DNA from: Georgenia satyanarayanai
Lineage (GTDB): Bacteria; Actinomycetota; Actinomycetes; Actinomycetales; Actinomycetaceae
Length of the DNA: 64,000 nucleotides
Direction: 5' to 3'
NCBI RefSeq assembly: GCF_023715365.1
Contig: NZ_JAMBNZ010000004.1
Location: 248,001-312,000 of the forward strand
The translations under genes were made by a program, and so were the position numbers. Numbering within the stretch: the stretch's first letter is position 1; every line of letters begins with the position of its first letter. Shown piece after piece: positions 6,990 to 15,359 of the stretch. The notes under the pieces are model-generated. The model made no database searches, was not told where the DNA came from, and saw nothing but the letters and a program-made list of their open reading frames with translations.

Positions 6990-7787
6990 GTGGACCCACT
7001 GAGCACCGCGCGCCGCGGCCCGACCACGCTCGCCGTCGACTGCGGGGGCGGCGGGATCAAGGCCTCGGTGCTCGACGCGGCGGGCACGATGCACGCTCAG
7101 CCGGTCCGGGCGGCCACGCCCTACCCGTTGCCACCGCAGCGGCTCGTCGACACGATCCGGTCCCTGGCCGACCAGCTGCCGCCCGCCGAGCGCGCCACGG
7201 TGGGAATGCCGGGGATGATCCGGCACGGCGTCGTCGTCACGACCCCGCACTACGTCACGCGCGCCGGGCCCCGGACCAAGGTGCTGCCCGACCTCGTCGA
7301 GGCGTGGGAGAACCTCGACCTCCAGGAGGCACTGAGCGCCGAGCTCGGCATGCCGGTGCTGCTCCTCAACGACGCGGAGGTCCACGGTGCGGGCGTCGTC
7401 GCCGGCGCCGGGCTCGAGCTCGTCGTCACCCTCGGCACGGGCCTGGGCAACGCCCTGTTCGACGGCGGCCGGCTGGCCCCGCACCTCGAGCTCTCGCGGG
7501 CACAGGCCCGGTGGGGCCTCACCTACGACGAGTACATCGGCGAGCACGAGCGGCTGCGGCTGGGGGACGCGATGTGGTCGCGGCGGGTGCGGCAGGTCGT
7601 CGACTCCCTGCGGCCGGTGGTCCTGTGGGACCGGCTCTACCTCGGTGGCGGCAACTCGCGCCGCATCACCGGTCCGACCCTGGACCGGCTGGGCGACGAC
7701 GTCGTCATCGTCCCCAACAGCGCGGGGATCGTCGGCGGGGTGCGGGCCTGGGAGCTGGGCGGGATCACGCCGAGCGGGCGGTCCTGA
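6990..7787 (+). CDS. ROK-family sugar-kinase-like protein
   Basis: A 265-residue protein of the ROK / polyphosphate-glucokinase type. It has the phosphate-1 loop [14 protein letters not shown] (near 16-29), the catalytic-type Asp in [12 protein letters not shown], the phosphate-2 loop [11 protein letters not shown] and the nucleotide-binding [11 protein letters not shown]. The family phosphorylates glucose or related sugars using ATP or polyphosphate, but the ELGH segment usual for sugar binding reads ELSRAQARW here, so activity and substrate are uncertain. No Shine-Dalgarno is seen before the GTG, and TAGTAC lies 10 nt upstream, so a leaderless mRNA is likely. It overlaps the convergent hydrolase by 23 nt. 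Confidence 0.8.
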
Positions 7788-8502
7788 CCGAGCCGGGTGC
7801 GACCTCCTCGACGAGGTCGAGCATGATCCTGTTGAACTCCTCGGGACGCACGAGGGAGACGAGGTGGCTGGCCCCGGGGACGATCTCCAGGCGCCCGTCG
7901 CGGGAGGCGGCGAGGAAGCGCCGCTCCTGGGTGCGGAAGTGGTCCCAGCGGCCGTTGACGAGCCGCACGGGCGCGTCGATGGCCCGCAGGTCGGCGATCG
8001 GGTCGAGGCCGCCGACGGCGGCGAGCGCCGCGTCCATCACCCCGAGCTCCATGCCGCCGTCGTGGAGGTCCGCGAGCGCCGCGGGCGGCAGCGCCACCCG
8101 CGCGAGGGTGTCGTTGAGCCACCGGCCGCCGTCGGGCAGGCGCGCGATGAGCGCGGCGACCCGCCGGTAGGCGGTCAGGCCGGGGCCGCGCGGCTGCGTG
8201 GAGCACCCCGCCGCCAGCACGCCCACCACCCGCTGCCCGGTCCGCGCCGCCCAGTCCAGGGTGAGGTAGCCACCGAGGGACAGGCCCACGACGACGACGG
8301 CGCCCTCGGCCGCGCGGGCCGCCTCCTCGACCGCCGCGCGGGCGCCGTCGACGGTGAAGGGCTCCCCCGCACGCTCCCCGTGGCCGGGCAGGTCCGGGGC
8401 GAGGGCCGGCACGCCGGCCTCCTCGAGCGCGGCGAGCTGGGGCCGCCACATCGTGCGGGACGCGCGGATCCCGTGGACGAGGACGACCGAGACACGGCTC
8501 AC
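7765..8502 (-). CDS. Alpha/beta hydrolase
   Basis: A 245-residue alpha/beta-hydrolase fold protein without a signal peptide. Visible are the early [16 protein letters not shown] oxyanion strand, the nucleophile elbow GLSLGG with catalytic Ser near residue 94, and a C-terminal GASHLVSL with the likely catalytic His. A possible catalytic Asp is in NGRWDHFRT. The substrate is unknown; the sequence looks like general esterase/hydrolase relatives. GTG start at 8502. It lies between the RiPP cluster and the ROK gene, and nothing links it to either. Confidence 0.82.
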
Positions 8503-8843
8503 GGGCCCACCCTGCCACGCACGGCGGTGGCGACGTCGGGCCGCCGGCCAGGATCACCCAGGGCCAGCGCCCTGCCCCACCCAGCCGCGTCCGGTGGCCC
8601 GTCACGTCCTGCTCACACCGGTGCCCGGGCCGCCACCAGCCACCCTGCCACCCACGAGCGGAGGACGGAGGGCCTGCACCGCACCTCGGTCTGAGGACGT
8701 CGGCACCGGCCACGGGCTCACGCTCGGTCGCCAGACGCCGGGCCCGAAAAAGGACAACTCCGTCCGGTCCGGCGTCGCCGGGCCGGACCAGCCGTCGACA
8801 GGCCCGCACCCGCCGGTCGGGCCCCCGCTGCCGGACGAGGGCC
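8503..8843. other. Intergenic region holding a precursor relic
   Basis: These 341 bp separate the hydrolase start (8502, minus) from the nucleotidyltransferase stop (8844, minus). No intact gene with a proper start is visible. The plus strand at 8669-8830 carries the degenerate precursor described separately; the rest shows nothing I can name. Confidence 0.6.
8669..8830 (+). pseudogene. Degenerate second lasso-type precursor peptide
   Basis: Read in this frame the sequence aligns without gaps to the intact precursor at 10279 over its first 32 residues, with 14 identities: APR, VG, LTLG, GP, DN and V. The start ATG is AGG, the leader Tyr codon TAC is TGC, a Trp codon is CGG, and the stop is lost near a PPVG ending shared with the intact gene. 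A purine-rich ribosome-site relic (GGAGGACGG) sits just upstream. In-frame GTG codons at 8594 and 8621 could still allow translation as an extended protein, so loss of function is probable but unproven. The relic lies on the far side of the nucleotidyltransferase from the intact gene. Confidence 0.66.
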
Positions 8844-8864
8844 TCACCGGGAGACCGGTGAGGC
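8841..8864 (-). terminator. Hairpin at the end of the nucleotidyltransferase gene
   Basis: GCCTCACCGG-GAGA-CCGGTGAGGC: a perfect 10-bp stem with a tetraloop that overlaps the last codons and stop (8844-8846) of the minus-strand nucleotidyltransferase gene. Its position suggests an intrinsic terminator or RNA 3-prime end. Confidence 0.5.
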
Positions 8865-9983
8865 TCCTGTCCCCGCACTGTCCTCCACCGCCCGGAGGTA
8901 GACCTCGAGGGCCTCCTCACCTGCCGTCACCCGGGCGGCGGCGGCACCCGCGCGCGGCGTGAGCCGGTCGACGACCCCCTGACCCGCGTTCCGCGCCACC
9001 TGGGCGACGGTGCGCAGCGCGCCGGGGCGTACCGCCCGGGCCACGAGGCGAGAGGGCGAGGAGTCGCGGCGCTGCCGCTCCACCGGGACGAGCCGGTCGA
9101 CGGCGTCGAGGATCGCACGCAGCGGCAGGGACGTCCCCAGCATCCGGTAGACGTCCGCGGGCACCGGGGTGCCGAGGGTCGCCGTGGCCCGCCGCAGCGC
9201 GAGCGCCACGTGCGCCTGGGCGCCCCACTCGGTGGCGCGTGCCGCGACCTCCCGCCACTCCTCGACCTGACGGCTGAGCTGGTCGACGTCGACCATCCAG
9301 GCGAGCCGGTTGGCCCCCGCAAGGGCGGCGTGCAGCGTGACGTGGACGAGGGCGTCCGTCTCGTCCAGCGCCCACGCCTGGCCCAGGCCGATGCGCACCC
9401 GGCGCCGCCGCGCGAGGAGCGCGTCGGTGTCGATCCGGAAGAGCCGGCGCCGCGAGCCCATGTTGATCATCGCCCAGTGGAGGTCGACCTGGATCCCCGC
9501 GGGGGTGAACCAGTGCATCTCGCCCGGGGTCTGGGGGTTGCGGAGCATGTCCTCGTAGTCGCCCACCTCCCACCCGGCCCCGAGCAGGGCCCGGCTGGCC
9601 GCTCGCAGGTCCTGCGGCGCGACGAGCAGGTCGAGGTCGCCGTAGGGCCGCACGCCGGGCACGGGGTGGGCGAGCTCGGACAGGACCGGCCCCTTGAAGA
9701 CGACCCAGGGGATGTCGGCGAGCACCTCGGACACGTGCGCGAGGAGCATCCCGGCACGGATGTGGAGCGACTTCGCGGCGTCCCGGTCCGCCCGCAGCAC
9801 CTCGGCCACCGCCGGGGCCGTCTCCCGCAGGCGGACGTGGGCGAGCGGCGAGACCCGGTGGTGGCGGGCGGCCGCCACCACGGAACCGGCCGGCAGCGAG
9901 GCGGTGGCCGTGACGTCGCCGCCGTCACGGCACACGGCGCGGAGGAGCTCGCCGACCGCCCGGCCATGGTTCCTGCGCGTCAT
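8844..9983 (-). CDS. Nucleotidyltransferase family protein of the RiPP cluster
   Basis: A 379-residue protein resembling the NTP_transf_5 family. It contains VVFKGPVLSELAH (95-106) and RPYGDLDLLV (112-121), where GDLDLL supplies the metal-binding Asp pair of the polymerase-beta-type fold. Such proteins occur in paeninodin-type lasso clusters beside an HPr-like kinase, where a tailoring role on the phosphorylated peptide has been proposed; none is shown here. The start at 9983 (MTRRNHGR) is preferred because the upstream in-frame 58 residues are Pro/His/Arg rich and unlike the family. It is divergent from the precursor gene, sharing a 295-bp control region. Confidence 0.8.
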   Translation of the reverse strand: MTRRNHGRAVGELLRAVCRDGGDVTATASLPAGSVVAAARHHRVSPLAHVRLRETAPAVAEVLRADRDAAKSLHIRAGMLLAHVSEVLADIPWVVFKGPVLSELAHPVPGVRPYGDLDLLVAPQDLRAASRALLGAGWEVGDYEDMLRNPQTPGEMHWFTPAGIQVDLHWAMINMGSRRRLFRIDTDALLARRRRVRIGLGQAWALDETDALVHVTLHAALAGANRLAWMVDVDQLSRQVEEWREVAARATEWGAQAHVALALRRATATLGTPVPADVYRMLGTSLPLRAILDAVDRLVPVERQRRDSSPSRLVARAVRPGALRTVAQVARNAGQGVVDRLTPRAGAAAARVTAGEEALEVYLRAVEDSAGTGASPVSR

Positions 9984-10063
9984 GCCGTTCCCGTCCTCGC
10001 CCGCCGCCGGATCCGGCGCTACCGGGAGCGTAGCGACGGCCCGGGTGTGGGACGGCGTGATTG

Positions 10064-10100
10064 CCGGACGCTCGCCGTCGTGCCCGGGGTGAGCGTCCGG
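10064..10100. promoter_or_regulatory. 10-bp inverted repeat in the divergent RiPP promoter region
   Basis: CCGGACGCTC (10064-10073) and GAGCGTCCGG (10091-10100) form a perfect inverted repeat with a 17-bp spacer, between the nucleotidyltransferase start and the precursor. The centre-to-centre distance of 27 bp would put both arms on nearly the same DNA face. A dimer operator is possible; a hairpin is the alternative. Confidence 0.5.
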
Positions 10101-10140
10101 GTGAGCACGGCGTCCCGGACGCGTCATCCGGGGGTCACCC
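10085..10140. promoter_or_regulatory. TCACCC direct repeats plus an 18-bp shared element
   Basis: On the minus strand GCTCACCC occurs twice with a 13-bp period (plus-strand 10085-10107). The 18-bp element GTCATCCGGGGGTCACCC follows at 10123-10140. The same two elements occur before the priming EPS transferase (34260-34281 and 34345-34362). The arrangement resembles direct-repeat sites of winged-helix response regulators; the binding protein is unknown. Confidence 0.4.
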
Positions 10141-10161
10141 ACGTTCACGCGCGACAACCGT

Positions 10162-10189
10162 CGTCAAGGCCGGGGCCCGTCCCTAGGCT
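10162..10189 (+). promoter_or_regulatory. Possible promoter of the precursor operon
   Basis: A CGTCAA -35-like hexamer (10162-10167) and a TAGGCT -10-like hexamer (10184-10189) are spaced by 16 bp. This gives a leader of about 80 nt before the precursor ATG. Match to the actinobacterial sigma-70 consensus is moderate. Confidence 0.35.
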
Positions 10190-10278
10190 CGGTCCCAGTC
10201 GGCGGCACCGCACCCCCGTCCGCCGACCACACGGCCCGTCCGGGCGTCATGGCTCATCGCTCACGAAGGAGTAAGGAC

Positions 10279-10431
10279 ATGAAGTACGACGCACCCCGCA
10301 TGACGGAGGTCGGCAGCGTCCGCGACCTCACGCTCGGCAAGGTCCCCACAGGCCCGCAGAGGGACAACGCCGTCTGGTTCGACATCTGGGGCGACCCCAA
10401 GAACCCGAACCCGCCCGTCGGCTCCCGCTGA
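10279..10431 (+). CDS. Lasso-type RiPP precursor peptide (50 residues)
   Basis: The leader has the lasso pattern Y-x-x-P (Tyr3, Pro6), then G12-S-V-R and Thr18 at the usual -2 position, so the core should begin at Gly20: GKVPTGPQRDNAVWF and on to a Pro/Asn-rich tail ending PPVGSR. In known lasso peptides residue 1 is joined to Asp/Glu at 7, 8 or 9. Here those are Pro26, Gln27 and Arg28, and the first acid is Asp29 at position 10. Cleavage one residue later would give a Lys21-Asp29 ring of nine. The ATG has tandem AAGGAG/AAGGA sites 2-12 nt upstream. It heads the plus-strand biosynthetic genes; the intergenic gap to the cyclase is 86 bp. Confidence 0.85.
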   Translation: MKYDAPRMTEVGSVRDLTLGKVPTGPQRDNAVWFDIWGDPKNPNPPVGSR

Positions 10432-10517
10432 GCACGCCCGCTGCGGGTCGAACGGTCCGAGCGGGACCGTCCGGCCCGCGGCACGTCCACCCGCGTCCCC
10501 GAGGAGAGGCCACCCGC

Positions 10518-11696
10518 GTGAGCGCACCGACGGCACAGGCGACGTTCACCAGCCTCACCCGGGCGGAGACCCTCCTGGCCCTGCCCGAGGCCAGCACCGT
10601 GCCCGTCGTCGTCGAGCACACTGGGCTCGGGGCCCGGGCCACCCTCGAGGCGATCCTGCTGGACGCGCTGTCCACGCCGCCGTGCCACGTCCTGTTCTCC
10701 GGTGGGCGCGACTCCTCCGCCCTCCTCGCCCTCACCGTGCGCCTCGCCCGTCGGCACGGCCTGGCCGAACCCGTCGCGGTGACGGTCCGTCACCCCGCCG
10801 CACCGGAGTCCGACGAGACCGCCTGGCAGGAGCTCGTCCTCGAGCACCTCGACCTCCACGACCACCTCGTCCTCGACTTCGACGGCGAGCAGCGCCTCCT
10901 CGGCGAGGTCGCCACCGCTGCACTGCGCCGGCACGGCCCGGTGTGGCCCGAGGCCGTCCAGCTGCACGGAGCCGTCTACCGCCACCTCGACCCCGGCGTC
11001 GTCATCTCCGGGGAGGGCGGTGACGCCGTCCTCGACGGGCAGCGGATGGGCGCGGTGCGTGACGCCCTCGCCCTCACCCGCCCCCGCCGCCGGTACCTGC
11101 GCCACGGCCTGCGCGCGGCCCGTCCGAACGTCCTGCGCCGCCGCGACGTCCGCGCCCAGGCCGCCTCGATCAGCCCTCCGTGGCTGCGCCCGGCAGCCGC
11201 GGCCGAGTACCTCACGCGCGTCACCACACTGGCCCAGGAGCCGCTGCGCTGGGACCGCGCAACCCGGGAGGCGCTGCGCTCCCGCCCCATGGCGGTGGCC
11301 ATGGCCAACGTCGACGCCGGGATCGCCGAGTACGGCTCCCGGCCCGTCACCCCCTTCGCGGACCTCAGGTTCGTCGACGCCCTGGCGGCGGAGGCCGGCC
11401 CGCTCGGCTGGGGCGACCGGACGGCGATCTTCCGGCGGCTCTTCCACGACGTCCTGCCCGACCGCGTGCTCAGCCGCCGGTCCAAGGCCTCCTTCAACTC
11501 CACCCGCTGGGGTCCGGAGGAGCGTGCGTTCGCCCGGGCCTGGGAGGGCGCCGGCCTCGACCCGGACTGGGTCGACCCCGCCGCCCTGCGCGCCGCGTGG
11601 CTCGAGGAGGACCCCCATCCTGCCGCGGACTTCCTGCTCCACCTCGCCTGGGCACAGGCCCACGGCATCCCGACGGCCGTGGAGCACGCCCCGTGA
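10518..11696 (+). CDS. Asparagine-synthetase-like macrocyclase (short form)
   Basis: Expected to adenylate a side-chain carboxylate of the core and close the macrolactam. The 392-residue protein has the PP-loop SGGRDSS (61-67) and SGEGGD (164-169), and the C-terminal SRRSKASFNS typical of the asparagine synthetase fold. Lasso cyclases are usually 500-650 residues with an N-terminal glutaminase-like domain; here only about 55 residues precede the PP-loop, so that domain is essentially missing. GTG start with GAGGAGAGG upstream. Its stop overlaps the start of the leader peptidase gene (GTGA), so translation is coupled. Confidence 0.86.
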   Translation: MSAPTAQATFTSLTRAETLLALPEASTVPVVVEHTGLGARATLEAILLDALSTPPCHVLFSGGRDSSALLALTVRLARRHGLAEPVAVTVRHPAAPESDETAWQELVLEHLDLHDHLVLDFDGEQRLLGEVATAALRRHGPVWPEAVQLHGAVYRHLDPGVVISGEGGDAVLDGQRMGAVRDALALTRPRRRYLRHGLRAARPNVLRRRDVRAQAASISPPWLRPAAAAEYLTRVTTLAQEPLRWDRATREALRSRPMAVAMANVDAGIAEYGSRPVTPFADLRFVDALAAEAGPLGWGDRTAIFRRLFHDVLPDRVLSRRSKASFNSTRWGPEERAFARAWEGAGLDPDWVDPAALRAAWLEEDPHPAADFLLHLAWAQAHGIPTAVEHAP

Positions 11697-12142
11697 TCCG
11701 CGAGGTCCGCACCCTGCTGCGCCGCCATCCCCGCACGTGGGTCCGCGCCGCCCGCGCGGCGGCACTCGCGGCCCTCGTCGAGATCGGCCTGCGTACCCTG
11801 CCGCTGCCCCGGCTCGCCCGGCTGCTGCGCGTGCGGCTCGTCCTGGACGGCACGGCCGGCCGGCGCGCCGACCCGCGCCTCATCCGACTGACCCCGGACG
11901 AGCGCGAGCGGCTCGACGTCACGTGGCGTGTGCTGCGGCACCGCCCCTTCAACGGGACCTGCCTGCGCCGCGCCCTCCTCGGCGCGCACGTGCTGCGGCA
12001 CCGCGAGCACGCCGTCCGCATCGGCGTCCAGAAGGTCGACGGCGAGGTCAAGGCGCACGCCTGGCTCGAGGTGGACGGGATCGTCGTCGACCCCGACGGC
12101 GTCGAGAGCTTCCGTACCCTGGCGACCGGAGTCCCCGCATGA
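11693..12142 (+). CDS. Lasso leader peptidase B2, transglutaminase-like
   Basis: Cysteine protease that removes the leader from the precursor together with the PqqD-like recognition protein. The 149-residue length is typical of B2. The papain-like triad is visible as Cys90 (in NGTCLRRALL), His122 (in KAHAWLEVDG) and an Asp at 133 or 135 (VVDPDG). GTG start overlapping the cyclase stop by 4 nt; its own stop overlaps the kinase ATG by 4 nt, so cyclase, protease and kinase form one coupled unit. Confidence 0.9.
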   Translation: MIREVRTLLRRHPRTWVRAARAAALAALVEIGLRTLPLPRLARLLRVRLVLDGTAGRRADPRLIRLTPDERERLDVTWRVLRHRPFNGTCLRRALLGAHVLRHREHAVRIGVQKVDGEVKAHAWLEVDGIVVDPDGVESFRTLATGVPA

Positions 12143-13095
12143 GCCCCGAACCGCCCCAGCGCCTCTACGGCCTCACCGTCGCGGCCGACTTCGCGCTCCA
12201 CCAGCACCGCTCCGCGCGCACGGGCTCGCGGGTGGACGTCACCGTCGTCGACGGAGCGCCCATGGCCGAGGACCGGCGGACCCCTCCGGGCACCGTCCTC
12301 CTCGACTTCGGCACCGCCCCGGACCGCTGGTACACGGCGACCCGCGGCCAGGACGGCTCGGTCCTCCTGCGCGTGCACGGCGTCTGCGACTTCGCCATCA
12401 GCCCCGACCTGTCCGAGGTGACCCTCCACCTCGTCCACGGCACCGCCCCGGGCATGCGGGCCATCATGACGACGGGGACCCTGCTCGCCCTCCAGCTCTA
12501 CCTGCGAGGCCACGCCGTCCTCCACGCGAGCGCCGTCGAGCGGGACGGGAACGCCGTCGCCTTCCTCGGGCACTCCGGGATGGGCAAGAGCACCCTCGCC
12601 GCCCTCCTGTGCGCGCAGGGTGCCCGCATCGTGAGCGACGACGTCGTCCCGGTGACGACGGGCGACGTCCCCCTCGTGCCCCTCGGGGCGACCGAGCTGC
12701 GCCTGCGCCCGGGCGCCGAGGCCGTGACGGCGGGGCTCACCGACCTGCGGTCGAGGACGAGCGCGGACGGCCGCACGGTCGTGGGCCTGCCCTCGCCCGG
12801 GACCGACGCGGTCCCGCTCGGCGCCGTCGTCATCCCGCGGCCCAACCGGGAGGGGCGGCTCGAGCTGGAGCCCCTCGACACGAAGTCCGCTCTCTTCGCG
12901 CTCATGAGCTTCCCGCGGCTCATGGGCTGGCAGGACCCCACCGTCCTCGCGCAGGTCTTCACCCACGCCTCCTGGCTCGCTCGCAGCGTGCCCGTCCTCG
13001 TGGGGCACGTGCCGTGGGGGCCGCCGTTCCGCGAGGACATCACGCCGGCGATCTGGGCGGCGGTCGACCGCCCGGCCCCCGCCTACCGCGCCTGA
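12139..13095 (+). CDS. HPr-kinase-like RiPP kinase
   Basis: A 318-residue protein with the HprK/P-like ATPase core: VLHASAVERDG, the P-loop GHSGMGKST (144-152, Lys150), and IVSDDVVPV with Asp167-Asp168. Related kinases in paeninodin-type clusters phosphorylate the hydroxyl of the C-terminal Ser of the lasso precursor. Here the precursor ends Ser49-Arg50, so Ser49 is the nearest candidate but is not terminal. The first 125 residues resemble no domain I can name. ATG overlaps the B2 stop (ATGA). The 3-prime end overlaps the convergent exporter gene by 13 nt. Confidence 0.85.
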   Translation: MSPEPPQRLYGLTVAADFALHQHRSARTGSRVDVTVVDGAPMAEDRRTPPGTVLLDFGTAPDRWYTATRGQDGSVLLRVHGVCDFAISPDLSEVTLHLVHGTAPGMRAIMTTGTLLALQLYLRGHAVLHASAVERDGNAVAFLGHSGMGKSTLAALLCAQGARIVSDDVVPVTTGDVPLVPLGATELRLRPGAEAVTAGLTDLRSRTSADGRTVVGLPSPGTDAVPLGAVVIPRPNREGRLELEPLDTKSALFALMSFPRLMGWQDPTVLAQVFTHASWLARSVPVLVGHVPWGPPFREDITPAIWAAVDRPAPAYRA

Positions 13096-14948
13096 GGGAC
13101 CCCGGGCTCGCCGAGGTAGGCGGCGGCCTGGAGGCGGAACAGCTCCGCGTACATGCCCTCCCGTGCCATGAGCTCCTCGTGGGAACCTGCTTCGACCACC
13201 CGTCCCTGGTCGAGGACGTAGATGACGTCGGCGGCGCGTACCGAGGAGAAGCGGTGCGAGATGAACACCGCGGTCCGGCCGGCGAGCACCGCCCGCAGCG
13301 ACTCGTACAGGGCGCTCTCCGCGCGGGGGTCGAGGGCCGCGGTGGGCTCGTCGAGGATCATCAGCTCGGCGTCGCGGTAGAAGGCGCGGGCGATCGCCAC
13401 CCGCTGCCACTGGCCGCCCGAGAGGTCGCGTCCGCCCTTGAACATGCGCGAGAGGATGGTCTCGTAGCCCGCGGGCAGCGCCTCGAGGAAGCTCGCCGCG
13501 CCCGCCCGGCCGGCCGCCTCGGCCACCCGCGCGTCCTCGCACTTCCCCGCGCGGCCGAAGGCGATGTTCTCGCGGGCGGTGAAGGCGTACCGGACGAAGT
13601 CCTGGAAGATCACCGCGACGCGGTCGCGCACCGAGACCCGCGAGTACGTGCGCGTGTCCCGGCCGTCCCACCGCACGGCCCCGGCGCTCGGGTCGTACAG
13701 GCCGGCGAGGATCTTGGCTAGCGTCGTCTTGCCCGACCCGTTCTCCCCCACGAGGGCGACGACCTGCCCGCGACGGATGCGCAGGTCCACGCCCCGCAGC
13801 GCCTCGGTGGCGCTGCCCGGGTAGCTGAAGCGGACGTCCTCGACCGTGATCTCACCGAAGGCTGGAGGCGCCGGGTCCCCCTCCTCCTCGTCGCGCGCCG
13901 TGGCCGCCAGGTCCATGAACTGGTCGACGTCGGAGAGGAAGAGGCCGGCCTCGAAGATCGACTGCATGCCACGCAGCAGGGCCTGCACCTGTCCCTGGAG
14001 CATCCTGATCGCGACGATGGCGGCACCCGCCTGGGCCACGGACACCGCGCCGCGGCCGATGAGCGTGACGAGGACGAGAAGGGTGGCGGTGAGGACGGCG
14101 GCGGACCCGAGGTTCCCGGCGGTGCTGAGGGCCAGCCGTCGCCGCAGGTGGCGGGCGAGGTCGGCGAGGTAGCGGGCGTAGAGCTCGTCGAAGCGCTCCC
14201 GGAACGGACCTCCGAGGTCGAAGGCGCGCACCTCCTTGGCCTCGTCGCGCGTGGTGAGGAGGTAGCTGAGGTAGTAGCGCTGCCGCTGATGCGGCGTCTG
14301 CGCGACCGTGAACTGGAACTCGCGGCGGCTCTCGCGCCGGTTGGTGAGGATCATCGGCAGCCCGCCGAGCAGGAGCAGCGGCAGCAGCACCGGGTGGATG
14401 CCCGCGAGCACGGCGCCGACCCCGATCGTCGCGGCGAGACCACCGACGATCCCGAGCAGCGCCTGGGTCACCTGGAAGGGCCGGCTCGTCGCACTGGCCT
14501 CCACCCGCTGGAGCCGGTCGTAGAAGGAGGCCGACTCGAAGTGGCGCAGCGAGACGGCGGTGGCCGCGTCAAGCACGTCCTGGTACGTGCGCCGGGCCAC
14601 GGACTCCCCGAGGAAGCGGCTCATGCTGCCGCGCACGGAGTCGAGCAGCGCGGCCGCGGCCATGAGTCCCGCGAGGCCGAGCGTCGCGGCGACGAGCACG
14701 CTCGGCACGCCACCACCCGGACCGAGCTCGAGCACCGCGGAGAGGAAGGACTCGACGACGAGCACCTGGCCCGCCAGGACGAGGGCCGCGACCACCTGGA
14801 CGACGAGCAGCCCGACGAACAAGAGCCGTCCCGAACCCCAGACAAGGCGCGTCGAGCGGCGGACGAGCTGCCACAGGCGCCCGACGGAGCGACGCTGGTT
14901 GCGGCTCTCGATCTGGAGGTCGAGCGGGTCGAGCAGCTCGGACGTCAT
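13083..14948 (-). CDS. ABC transporter, fused permease and ATPase (RiPP exporter)
   Basis: A 621-residue half-transporter that as a dimer would export the mature peptide and give self-protection. The N-terminal 330 residues hold the membrane helices; the ATPase follows with Walker A GENGSGKTT (near 399-407), signature LSGGQWQR, Walker B with ILDEPTAAL, and the SHR switch His. There is no N-terminal C39 peptidase domain, as expected when B2 does the leader cleavage. It is preceded by the PqqD-like gene on the same strand 19 nt away. Substrate assignment comes from the gene context. Confidence 0.87.
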   Translation of the reverse strand: MTSELLDPLDLQIESRNQRRSVGRLWQLVRRSTRLVWGSGRLLFVGLLVVQVVAALVLAGQVLVVESFLSAVLELGPGGGVPSVLVAATLGLAGLMAAAALLDSVRGSMSRFLGESVARRTYQDVLDAATAVSLRHFESASFYDRLQRVEASATSRPFQVTQALLGIVGGLAATIGVGAVLAGIHPVLLPLLLLGGLPMILTNRRESRREFQFTVAQTPHQRQRYYLSYLLTTRDEAKEVRAFDLGGPFRERFDELYARYLADLARHLRRRLALSTAGNLGSAAVLTATLLVLVTLIGRGAVSVAQAGAAIVAIRMLQGQVQALLRGMQSIFEAGLFLSDVDQFMDLAATARDEEEGDPAPPAFGEITVEDVRFSYPGSATEALRGVDLRIRRGQVVALVGENGSGKTTLAKILAGLYDPSAGAVRWDGRDTRTYSRVSVRDRVAVIFQDFVRYAFTARENIAFGRAGKCEDARVAEAAGRAGAASFLEALPAGYETILSRMFKGGRDLSGGQWQRVAIARAFYRDAELMILDEPTAALDPRAESALYESLRAVLAGRTAVFISHRFSSVRAADVIYVLDQGRVVEAGSHEELMAREGMYAELFRLQAAAYLGEPGVPQAR

Positions 14949-14967
14949 CGCCCGGCCTCGCGGCTGG

Positions 14968-15219
14968 TCACCGCAGCAGCCCCTTGGCGGCGAGGTCGGC
15001 GGCGAAGGCGGACGCGTCCGCCACGGCCGTCGAGCGGTCGATCCCGTACTCCGCGACGAGCGCGTCGGCGAGCTCTGCGACGGACCGCTCCTCGGTCAGC
15101 AGCTTGGCCAGGTGGGCGCCGGCCACATTCGTCGTGAGGTAGACCGAGCGCGCGGTGTCGAGGATGACCAGCTCGTCGTCGATCTCCTGCCAGGTGATGC
15201 CCTCGCTCCGCAGCTGCAC
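14968..15219 (-). CDS. PqqD-like RiPP recognition protein (lasso B1)
   Basis: An 83-residue PqqD/RRE-fold protein (VQLRSEGITWQEIDDELVI...), which should bind the leader (the Y-x-x-P region) and hand it to the protease. Hydrophobic pattern with YLTTNVAGAHLAKLL and VAEYGIDRSTAVAD matches lasso B1 proteins. The GTG at 15219 is chosen because AGGGAG lies 5 nt upstream; a GTG 6 nt earlier would overlap the ribosome site. First gene of the minus-strand pair with the exporter. Promoter expected in 15220-15359. Confidence 0.86.
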   Translation of the reverse strand: MQLRSEGITWQEIDDELVILDTARSVYLTTNVAGAHLAKLLTEERSVAELADALVAEYGIDRSTAVADASAFAADLAAKGLLR

Positions 15220-15359
15220 GTGCACTCCCTCTCGAGCCCTCCGGCCGCTGTCGCGCGCCCGGGACCGTGCCCGGGCGCGGCGACGCGCCCCGGCAGTCCT
15301 GGCGAGCGTACTGCCGGGGTCGACCGCGTCACGGGGTGCGGCGGACGATCGTGGGTGCA

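Follow-up and report, generated by a model that had tools for sequence, protein, structure and literature searches.

We describe here a probable pathway for a phosphorylated lasso peptide in a stretch of 64,000 nt of DNA from Georgenia satyanarayanai; this whole stretch is called the window below. Seven genes with open frames at 8844–15222 encode a nucleotidyltransferase (NTase), a precursor, a macrolactam synthetase (cyclase), a leader peptidase (B2), an HPrK-like kinase, an exporter and a leader-binding protein (B1). We are highly confident that they belong to one pathway for a lasso-type ribosomally synthesized and post-translationally modified peptide (RiPP), and nearly as confident that this pathway works and makes a phosphorylated lasso peptide by the steps proposed below. 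It would be a variant of its type because its cyclase is short and its predicted ring has ten residues; judged from the sequence, the chance that the product closes a ring between Gly1 and Asp10 is about even.

In the proposed scheme, B1 would bind the leader through Y-17, P-14 and M-12, and the HPrK-like kinase would phosphorylate the single Ser of the core, beside its C-terminus (VGSR). B2 would cleave after Leu19, two residues past the conserved Thr when counted inclusively (Thr at -2), and the short cyclase would activate Asp10 and join it to Gly1, giving a ten-residue ring that would surround a tail with the bulky residues W, F and W. The NTase may extend the phosphate, and the ATP-binding cassette (ABC) protein would export the product.

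Gene set and selection

The preliminary description of this DNA had read the seven genes as one lasso-type pathway with the roles named above and had pointed out a layout split between the strands. Hidden Markov model searches gave family matches for all seven proteins, in agreement with that reading, and the layout was confirmed gene by gene: precursor, cyclase, B2 and kinase lie on the plus strand, and NTase, exporter and B1 on the minus strand. The features are as follows.

About 8669–8840 (ends approximate), plus: broken second copy of the lasso precursor; the start is missing, as are the frame and the stop close to the 3' end
8844–9983, minus: NTP_transf_5 nucleotidyltransferase (N), likely a tailoring enzyme; PF14907, E 5.3e-41; start codon picked by eye
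10279–10431, plus: lasso precursor (A), 50 aa, predicted leader MKYDAPRMTEVGSVRDLTL and predicted core GKVPTGPQRDNAVWFDIWGDPKNPNPPVGSR; NF033521, 26.9 bits (cut-off 19)
10518–11696, plus: lasso-type macrolactam synthetase (C), 392 aa, short, lacking the N-terminal glutaminase-like domain; PF00733, E 3.8e-17
11693–12142, plus: leader peptidase B2; NF033537, 60.8 bits (cut-off 33)
12139–13095, plus: HPrK-like kinase (K); HprK_rel_A, 43.4 bits (cut-off 200); H...GMGKS...DD motif
13083–14948, minus: ABC exporter (D), MsbA-like; PF00005, E 3e-34
14968–15222, minus: B1 leader-binding protein with a PqqD-like RiPP recognition element (RRE); PF05402, E 2.2e-14; NF033530, 42.5 bits (cut-off 70)

The RRE of B1 and the transglutaminase-like peptidase B2 exceed the cut-offs of PF05402 and NF033537, respectively, and the asparagine-synthetase-like cyclase exceeds that of PF00733 and has a matching fold. 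The whole genome carries one such cyclase and one lasso leader above the NF033521 cut-off; in 14 control genomes the leader model matched in 2 and exceeded the cut-off in none. The searches did not place the cyclase or the protease in an unrelated pathway, and we rejected a pathway of the asparagine-synthetase type outside the lasso family, because B1, B2 and the leader model argue for lasso.

Ratios of nonsynonymous to synonymous substitution rates (dN/dS) were 0.22–0.30 for the NTase against four relatives and 0.21–0.29 for B2 against three; against up to four relatives they were 0.16–0.45 for the cyclase, 0.15–0.32 for the kinase, 0.11–0.22 for the exporter and 0.27–0.41 for B1. By these ratios, the enzymes are under purifying selection.

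The preliminary description was silent on the short cyclase, on the broken second precursor and on the spacing from Thr to Asp, which implies either a ten-residue ring or a shifted cut.

Precursors and leader peptides

The leader of the window carries the YxxPx motif (YDAPRM) and LTL with Thr at -2. Its spacing of Y-17, P-14 and residue -12 equals that reported for BsfA (PMC10368454; statements on papers cited by PMC number refer to the accessible portions of these papers). Met, present at -12 in the window, is absent from the list of residues at this position (L, V, I, A, F and Y) in PMC13381572.

An unfiltered scan, with no demand on the acid or on the spacing from Tyr to Thr, gave 68 distinct frames; in 52 of them the motif is followed by [LMVI]T, and in 16 it is not. 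Tyr stood at -17 in all 52 precursors with [LMVI]T; among the other 16 frames, that of locus L086 was leader-like and the remaining 15 resembled chance frames. The L086 frame (238, minus) has His-Thr, bears no acid at core positions 7–13 and lies beside a second, longer cyclase frame. An earlier table was narrowed from 80 candidate rows to 54, of which 48 were distinct; its source scan demanded an acid at core positions 6–11 and the table itself fixed Tyr at -17, so that both features were partly built in. Four precursors (L067 8346, L068 6644, and L085 8697 and 8339) have the standard Asp9 and a predicted first core residue of Glu, Gln or Arg; these first residues fall outside the observed residues listed in PMC12670498.

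The second precursor copy of the window has 84.7% DNA identity over 170 nt to the second precursor of L010, which is intact, as is that of L011. In L011 (8677–10176) it is the first precursor that is damaged: its end is gone, and it continues into the frame of the cyclase; this fused precursor is absent from both precursor tables. The strains of the window, L010 and L011 thus appear once to have had two precursors of the Asp10 type, two of the three having lost one or the other. Apart from the true copies, the matches listed by a tblastn search for remnants of precursors were mostly noise.

The short cyclase

A lasso cyclase is usually a full-length protein with an N-terminal glutaminase-like domain. 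That of the window, at 392 aa, consists of the synthetase domain only and lacks the N-terminal domain: the lasso model NF033535 (668 positions) matched at positions 446–600 only, with 22 bits against a cut-off of 525. An AlphaFold2 (AF2) model built from 6 sequences (predicted local distance difference test, pLDDT, 77; predicted template modelling score, pTM, 0.79) matched beta-lactam synthetase, TsnB9 and asparagine synthetase; the TM-scores were modest and did not exceed 0.52. Close relatives are also of the short form, and some open frames of the family are longer, with provisional starts. We rejected a full-length cyclase with a missed start, because there is no space for one: the stop of the precursor is at 10431, and the domain begins about 39 residues into the 392-aa protein.

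Ring size and the spacing from Thr to Asp

Lasso rings close on core residue 7–9 (PMC8498205, PMC10368454). With Thr at -2, the window core has no Asp or Glu at position 7, 8 or 9 and its first acid is Asp10; with a cut one residue later, this acid would become Asp9. Among the 52 distinct precursors, the acid stands at position 9 in 35, Asp10 is found with no acid at 9 in 14 and Asp11 in 3. The 14 with Asp10 (D10; D9 for an acid at 9) comprise 10 distinct sequences from the window, its genus relatives, L016 and L058/L059/L063, and 4 from a separate group, f14.

In a tree of the cyclases, a spacing of 11 from Thr to Asp was found in all 9 rows of one clade (support 97/97), which groups beside the D9 cyclases of L014 and L017 (11 rows, support 97/89). 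The spacing label, assigned by locus and not measured by program, required 2 changes on the tree against a mean of 10.6 after shuffling, and in none of 500 shufflings was the number as low. The tree omits the duplicate main row of L014 and also L119 (7048–8298), whose cyclase gene is split by an in-frame TAG, its one stop. Under the leader-rule numbering, Asp10 is conserved in the clade together with Gly1: the core begins with Gly in all 10 distinct precursors, and K, R, S, L or G follows at position 2. Judging from the tree, the D10 spacing is a mark of one supported cyclase clade and has arisen apart in f14.

Two genomes, G137 (L012/L014) and G108 (L016/L017), have two cyclases and two leaders above the cut-off each, one leader D9 and the other D10 with a cyclase of its own next to each, and in the whole genome of each we found one B1 and one B2 (counted at E 0.01; among 14 control genomes, the B2 model gave matches in 1 and the B1 model in 3). 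The two clusters of G137 lie on one contig: L012 (8767–13752) has B1 and no B2, and L014 (5613–8433) has B2 and no B1. In the D10 cluster, which is the one without B2, the cyclase frame runs up to where the kinase begins; the B2 of the D9 cluster is about 51–58% identical to those of the genus over 76–119 residues. In G108, the only B1 and B2 found lie in the cluster other than L017. The stretch of L017 (8973–10381) contains a cyclase and a D9 precursor, and no kinase, B1 or B2 was found in it.

Because only a single B1 and B2 were found in each genome, one peptidase would therefore release both D9 and D10 cores, most simply at the same offset, and with the same offset the ring sizes would differ. 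We put at one in two the chance that the short-cyclase clade has evolved a natural Gly1–Asp10 ring on phosphorylated precursors, with the cyclase setting the size and shared B1 and B2 serving rings of nine and ten. Such a ring is feasible, since the fusilassin/fuscanodin enzymes have formed a ring of ten residues in vitro (PMC8498205, citing DiCaprio 2019, and Koos and Link 2019). This in vitro analogue, which is not a natural product, was the only precedent that our literature search for a natural ten-residue lasso ring found, in the accessible portion of that review; neither PMC12355721 nor PMC13068362 is on lasso ring size. If the reading is true, the range of natural lasso rings widens from 7–9 to 10, and the cyclase, not the peptidase, is suggested to choose ring size. 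Paired D9 and D10 cyclases seemingly sharing one peptidase would then be a ready system for studying how a cyclase measures the ring, and mining rules that require an acid at 7–9 could misassign such cores.

Kinase and proposed phosphate site

By sequence the kinase is a distant relative of its family, since it scores below the cut-offs of HprK_rel_A (43 bits; 200) and of Pfam Hpr_kinase_C (26.6 bits; 33.3). The folds of phosphoenolpyruvate carboxykinase (PEPCK) and HPr kinase are related, and an AF2 model of the kinase (pLDDT 93) had PEPCK as its best fold match, with HPr kinases lower. The His-Lys-Asp-Asp motif of HPrK-like lasso kinases is present. The pattern H..GK[ST]..DD was found in 41 of 42 kinase rows (E < 1e-20; one gene counted twice); we used this looser pattern because a stricter one, matching 14 of the 42, was too narrow. 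An alignment of 14 kinases contains the blocks LHASAV, SGMGKST and PWGPPF with few exceptions, and H, GKS and DD residues have been reported for lasso kinases (PMC10368454).

The single Ser of the window core is penultimate (PVGSR end). The C-terminal residue of the 52 distinct precursors is Ser in 44 and Arg in 6 (all of them Ser-Arg and all from the genus of the window), with other residues in 2; the G137 precursor from the second cluster terminates in PVGS, resembling the end of the window core minus Arg. These ends and the single near-terminal Ser, together with the C-terminal Ser that is the phosphate acceptor in paeninodin (PMC9266682), fit phosphorylation of the penultimate Ser, where by analogy the phosphate would be placed.

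Weighing the explanations

Several observations weigh against the pathway and ring proposed here. No product is known for the cluster, and kinase, B1 and cyclase all score below the NCBI cut-offs for the named HprK or lasso models. The 50-residue precursor has a dN/dS of 0.30–0.87. Known substrates end in a bare Ser, unlike the Ser-Arg of the window core, and the kinase of Bradymonas targets Ser3 (PMC10368454), a position at which the window core has no Ser. As to the ring, ten residues are outside the range of 7–9 given in reviews (PMC8498205), and a change of one residue in ring size is said to cut yield strongly (PMC13352647). The program flagged several long branches in the cyclase tree, 4 of the 10 clade precursors (L016, L058, L059 and L063), including that of G108, also bear an acid at 7, and the counts of one B1 and one B2 at E 0.01 could miss a divergent peptidase. 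In addition, among the presumably orthologous f14 precursors, the stretch from LTL to a common GKQFG..SD motif is not of the same length in L069 and L070 as in L072, and this suggests a cut that may float while the ring stays constant at nine. The B2 of f14 has diverged, with all 4 proteins under the family cut-off, and the cut rule may therefore differ there; the f14 case still weakens the inference of ten residues. Each of these three loci has a pair of precursors beside one cyclase, with spacings from Thr to Asp of 11 and 12 (both 11 in L072), which may reflect either a leader cut that floats or rings with 10 and 11 residues.

The strongest competitor keeps the phospho-lasso pathway and moves the cut of B2 one residue later (Thr at -3), which would leave Lys at the N-terminus and give a nine-residue Lys1–Asp9 ring; we give it roughly one chance in four. 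It would restore the acid to the family norm of position 9, the f14 length change speaks for it, and unusual first residues do exist, such as Asn in metanodin (PMC12670498) and the Q, R and E of the D9 precursors above. However, the leader spacing equals that of BsfA only with a cut after Leu19, residue 20 is invariably Gly in the clade whereas residue 21 varies, and the sole B1 and B2 found in G137 and G108 would have to serve both spacings.

It is distinctly improbable that the product is linear, or a branched ring without threading, and functions through its phosphorylated tail in the manner of linear polyphosphorylated peptides (LPPs). LPP clusters do share with the window a discrete RRE, a kinase, an NTase and an exporter (PMC13381572), and the short cyclase and the atypical ring spacing would suit such a product. 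But LPP clusters are said to lack a cyclase and to use a different, signal-peptidase-like leader peptidase, while the window has B2 and a conserved synthetase under constraint, and an acid is present at 9, 10 or 11 in all 52 precursors.

Least credible, and very improbable, is a decaying cluster that makes nothing: the broken second precursor of the window, the fused first precursor of L011 and the main cluster of G137 without B2 point that way, but all seven window genes are open, dN/dS of the enzymes is well below 1, and the 5 genomes of higher completeness in the genus have all kept an intact precursor and a B2.

Comparison with known systems

The core of paeninodin closes a nine-residue ring. 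Its cluster in Paenibacillus (PadeA/B1/B2/C/K) resembles that of the window in having precursor, B1, B2, cyclase and an HPrK-like kinase with His-Lys-Asp-Asp (PMC9266682); the window differs in being actinobacterial, in its short cyclase and in an acceptor Ser followed by Arg. Pseudomycoidin of Bacillus pseudomycoides likewise has a kinase (PsmK) and a nucleotidyltransferase (PsmN), the latter associated with the presence of one or two hexoses at the phosphate (PMC9266682). It comes from Firmicutes and differs in ring spacing, and any such role of the window NTase is putative. The bsf cluster of Bradymonas sediminis has the same seven functions and ribosomal protein genes on one border; in contrast to the window, it has Ile at -2, a Gly1–Asp8 ring and a kinase acting on Ser3 within the ring (PMC10368454).

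The combination of kinase and NTase had been called best known from Firmicutes in the preliminary description. This is fair, since a survey of 2020 found co-occurring kinase and NTase genes characteristic of Firmicutes (PMC7533575), but kinase-bearing lasso clusters are named also for Proteobacteria (PMC8498205), and Bradymonas has both genes (PMC10368454). We make no claim that actinobacterial cases are unreported in the literature; the accessible portions of a Georgenia paper (PMC12067966) and a Subtercola paper (PMC9287328) do not describe this cluster and such a cluster, respectively.

Genomic location and phylogenetic spread

The cluster had been placed inside the ribosomal superoperon, between rplQ and truA. 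Both genes do flank it, but the wording is loose: the set follows rplQ, and an alpha/beta hydrolase gene (7765–8502) intervenes before truA. The same order (truA, hydrolase, NTase, cyclase, kinase, exporter, B1, rplQ) is found in L010, L011, L012 and L015, all from the genus of the window. The cyclase is present in 5 of the 6 sampled genomes of the genus; the sixth, G139 (57% complete), was scored without it, yet its contig terminates within the B1 gene beside rplQ, and the set is therefore probably present in all six.

Outside the genus, the rplQ neighbourhoods of 8 of 18 genomes were examined, and cyclase, kinase, NTase and B1 were not matched in them at E 1e-6. The hydrolase was matched in 3 of the 8, and in G111, of the same family, rplQ, hydrolase and truA are consecutive with no cluster. 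From these cluster-free neighbourhoods, the cluster most likely arose at this site by insertion between rplQ and the hydrolase gene. We rejected a recent import from Firmicutes, because the relatives are actinobacterial (only this phylum was searched genome by genome) and one site is common to five genomes of the genus.

Named relatives of the cyclase were found at 89% in Oceanitalea stevensii, at 86% and 69% in two strains recorded as Georgenia satyanarayanai and at 43% in Amycolatopsis tucumanensis. Searches that used the cyclase of the window gave matches in 7 of 213 genomes of the family (one of the seven weak), 18 of 297 of the order and 26 of 394 of the class, 20 of the last with E < 1e-40; these three sets overlap. 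A further scan matched 28 of 396 genomes, only 3 of them with E < 1e-40.

The comparative search did find the same set elsewhere, and the set is not peculiar to this genome. Gene context was covered for the 20 strong class genomes other than G499 and G561. The neighbours within 9 kb of 46 cyclase rows (two rows are the halves of the split L119 gene, and paired cyclases at one locus share neighbours) were kinase in 44, B1 in 43, B2 in 37, NTase in 30 and ABC exporter in 27, the lower counts being minima because the stretches are finite. B1, B2, kinase and NTase were all present near 21 of the 46. Because a kinase lies near 44 of the 46 related actinobacterial cyclase rows, the genome of the window is not exceptional in its phylum: the kinase-tailored lasso set is a broad actinobacterial family, documented with a short cyclase across Actinomycetota.

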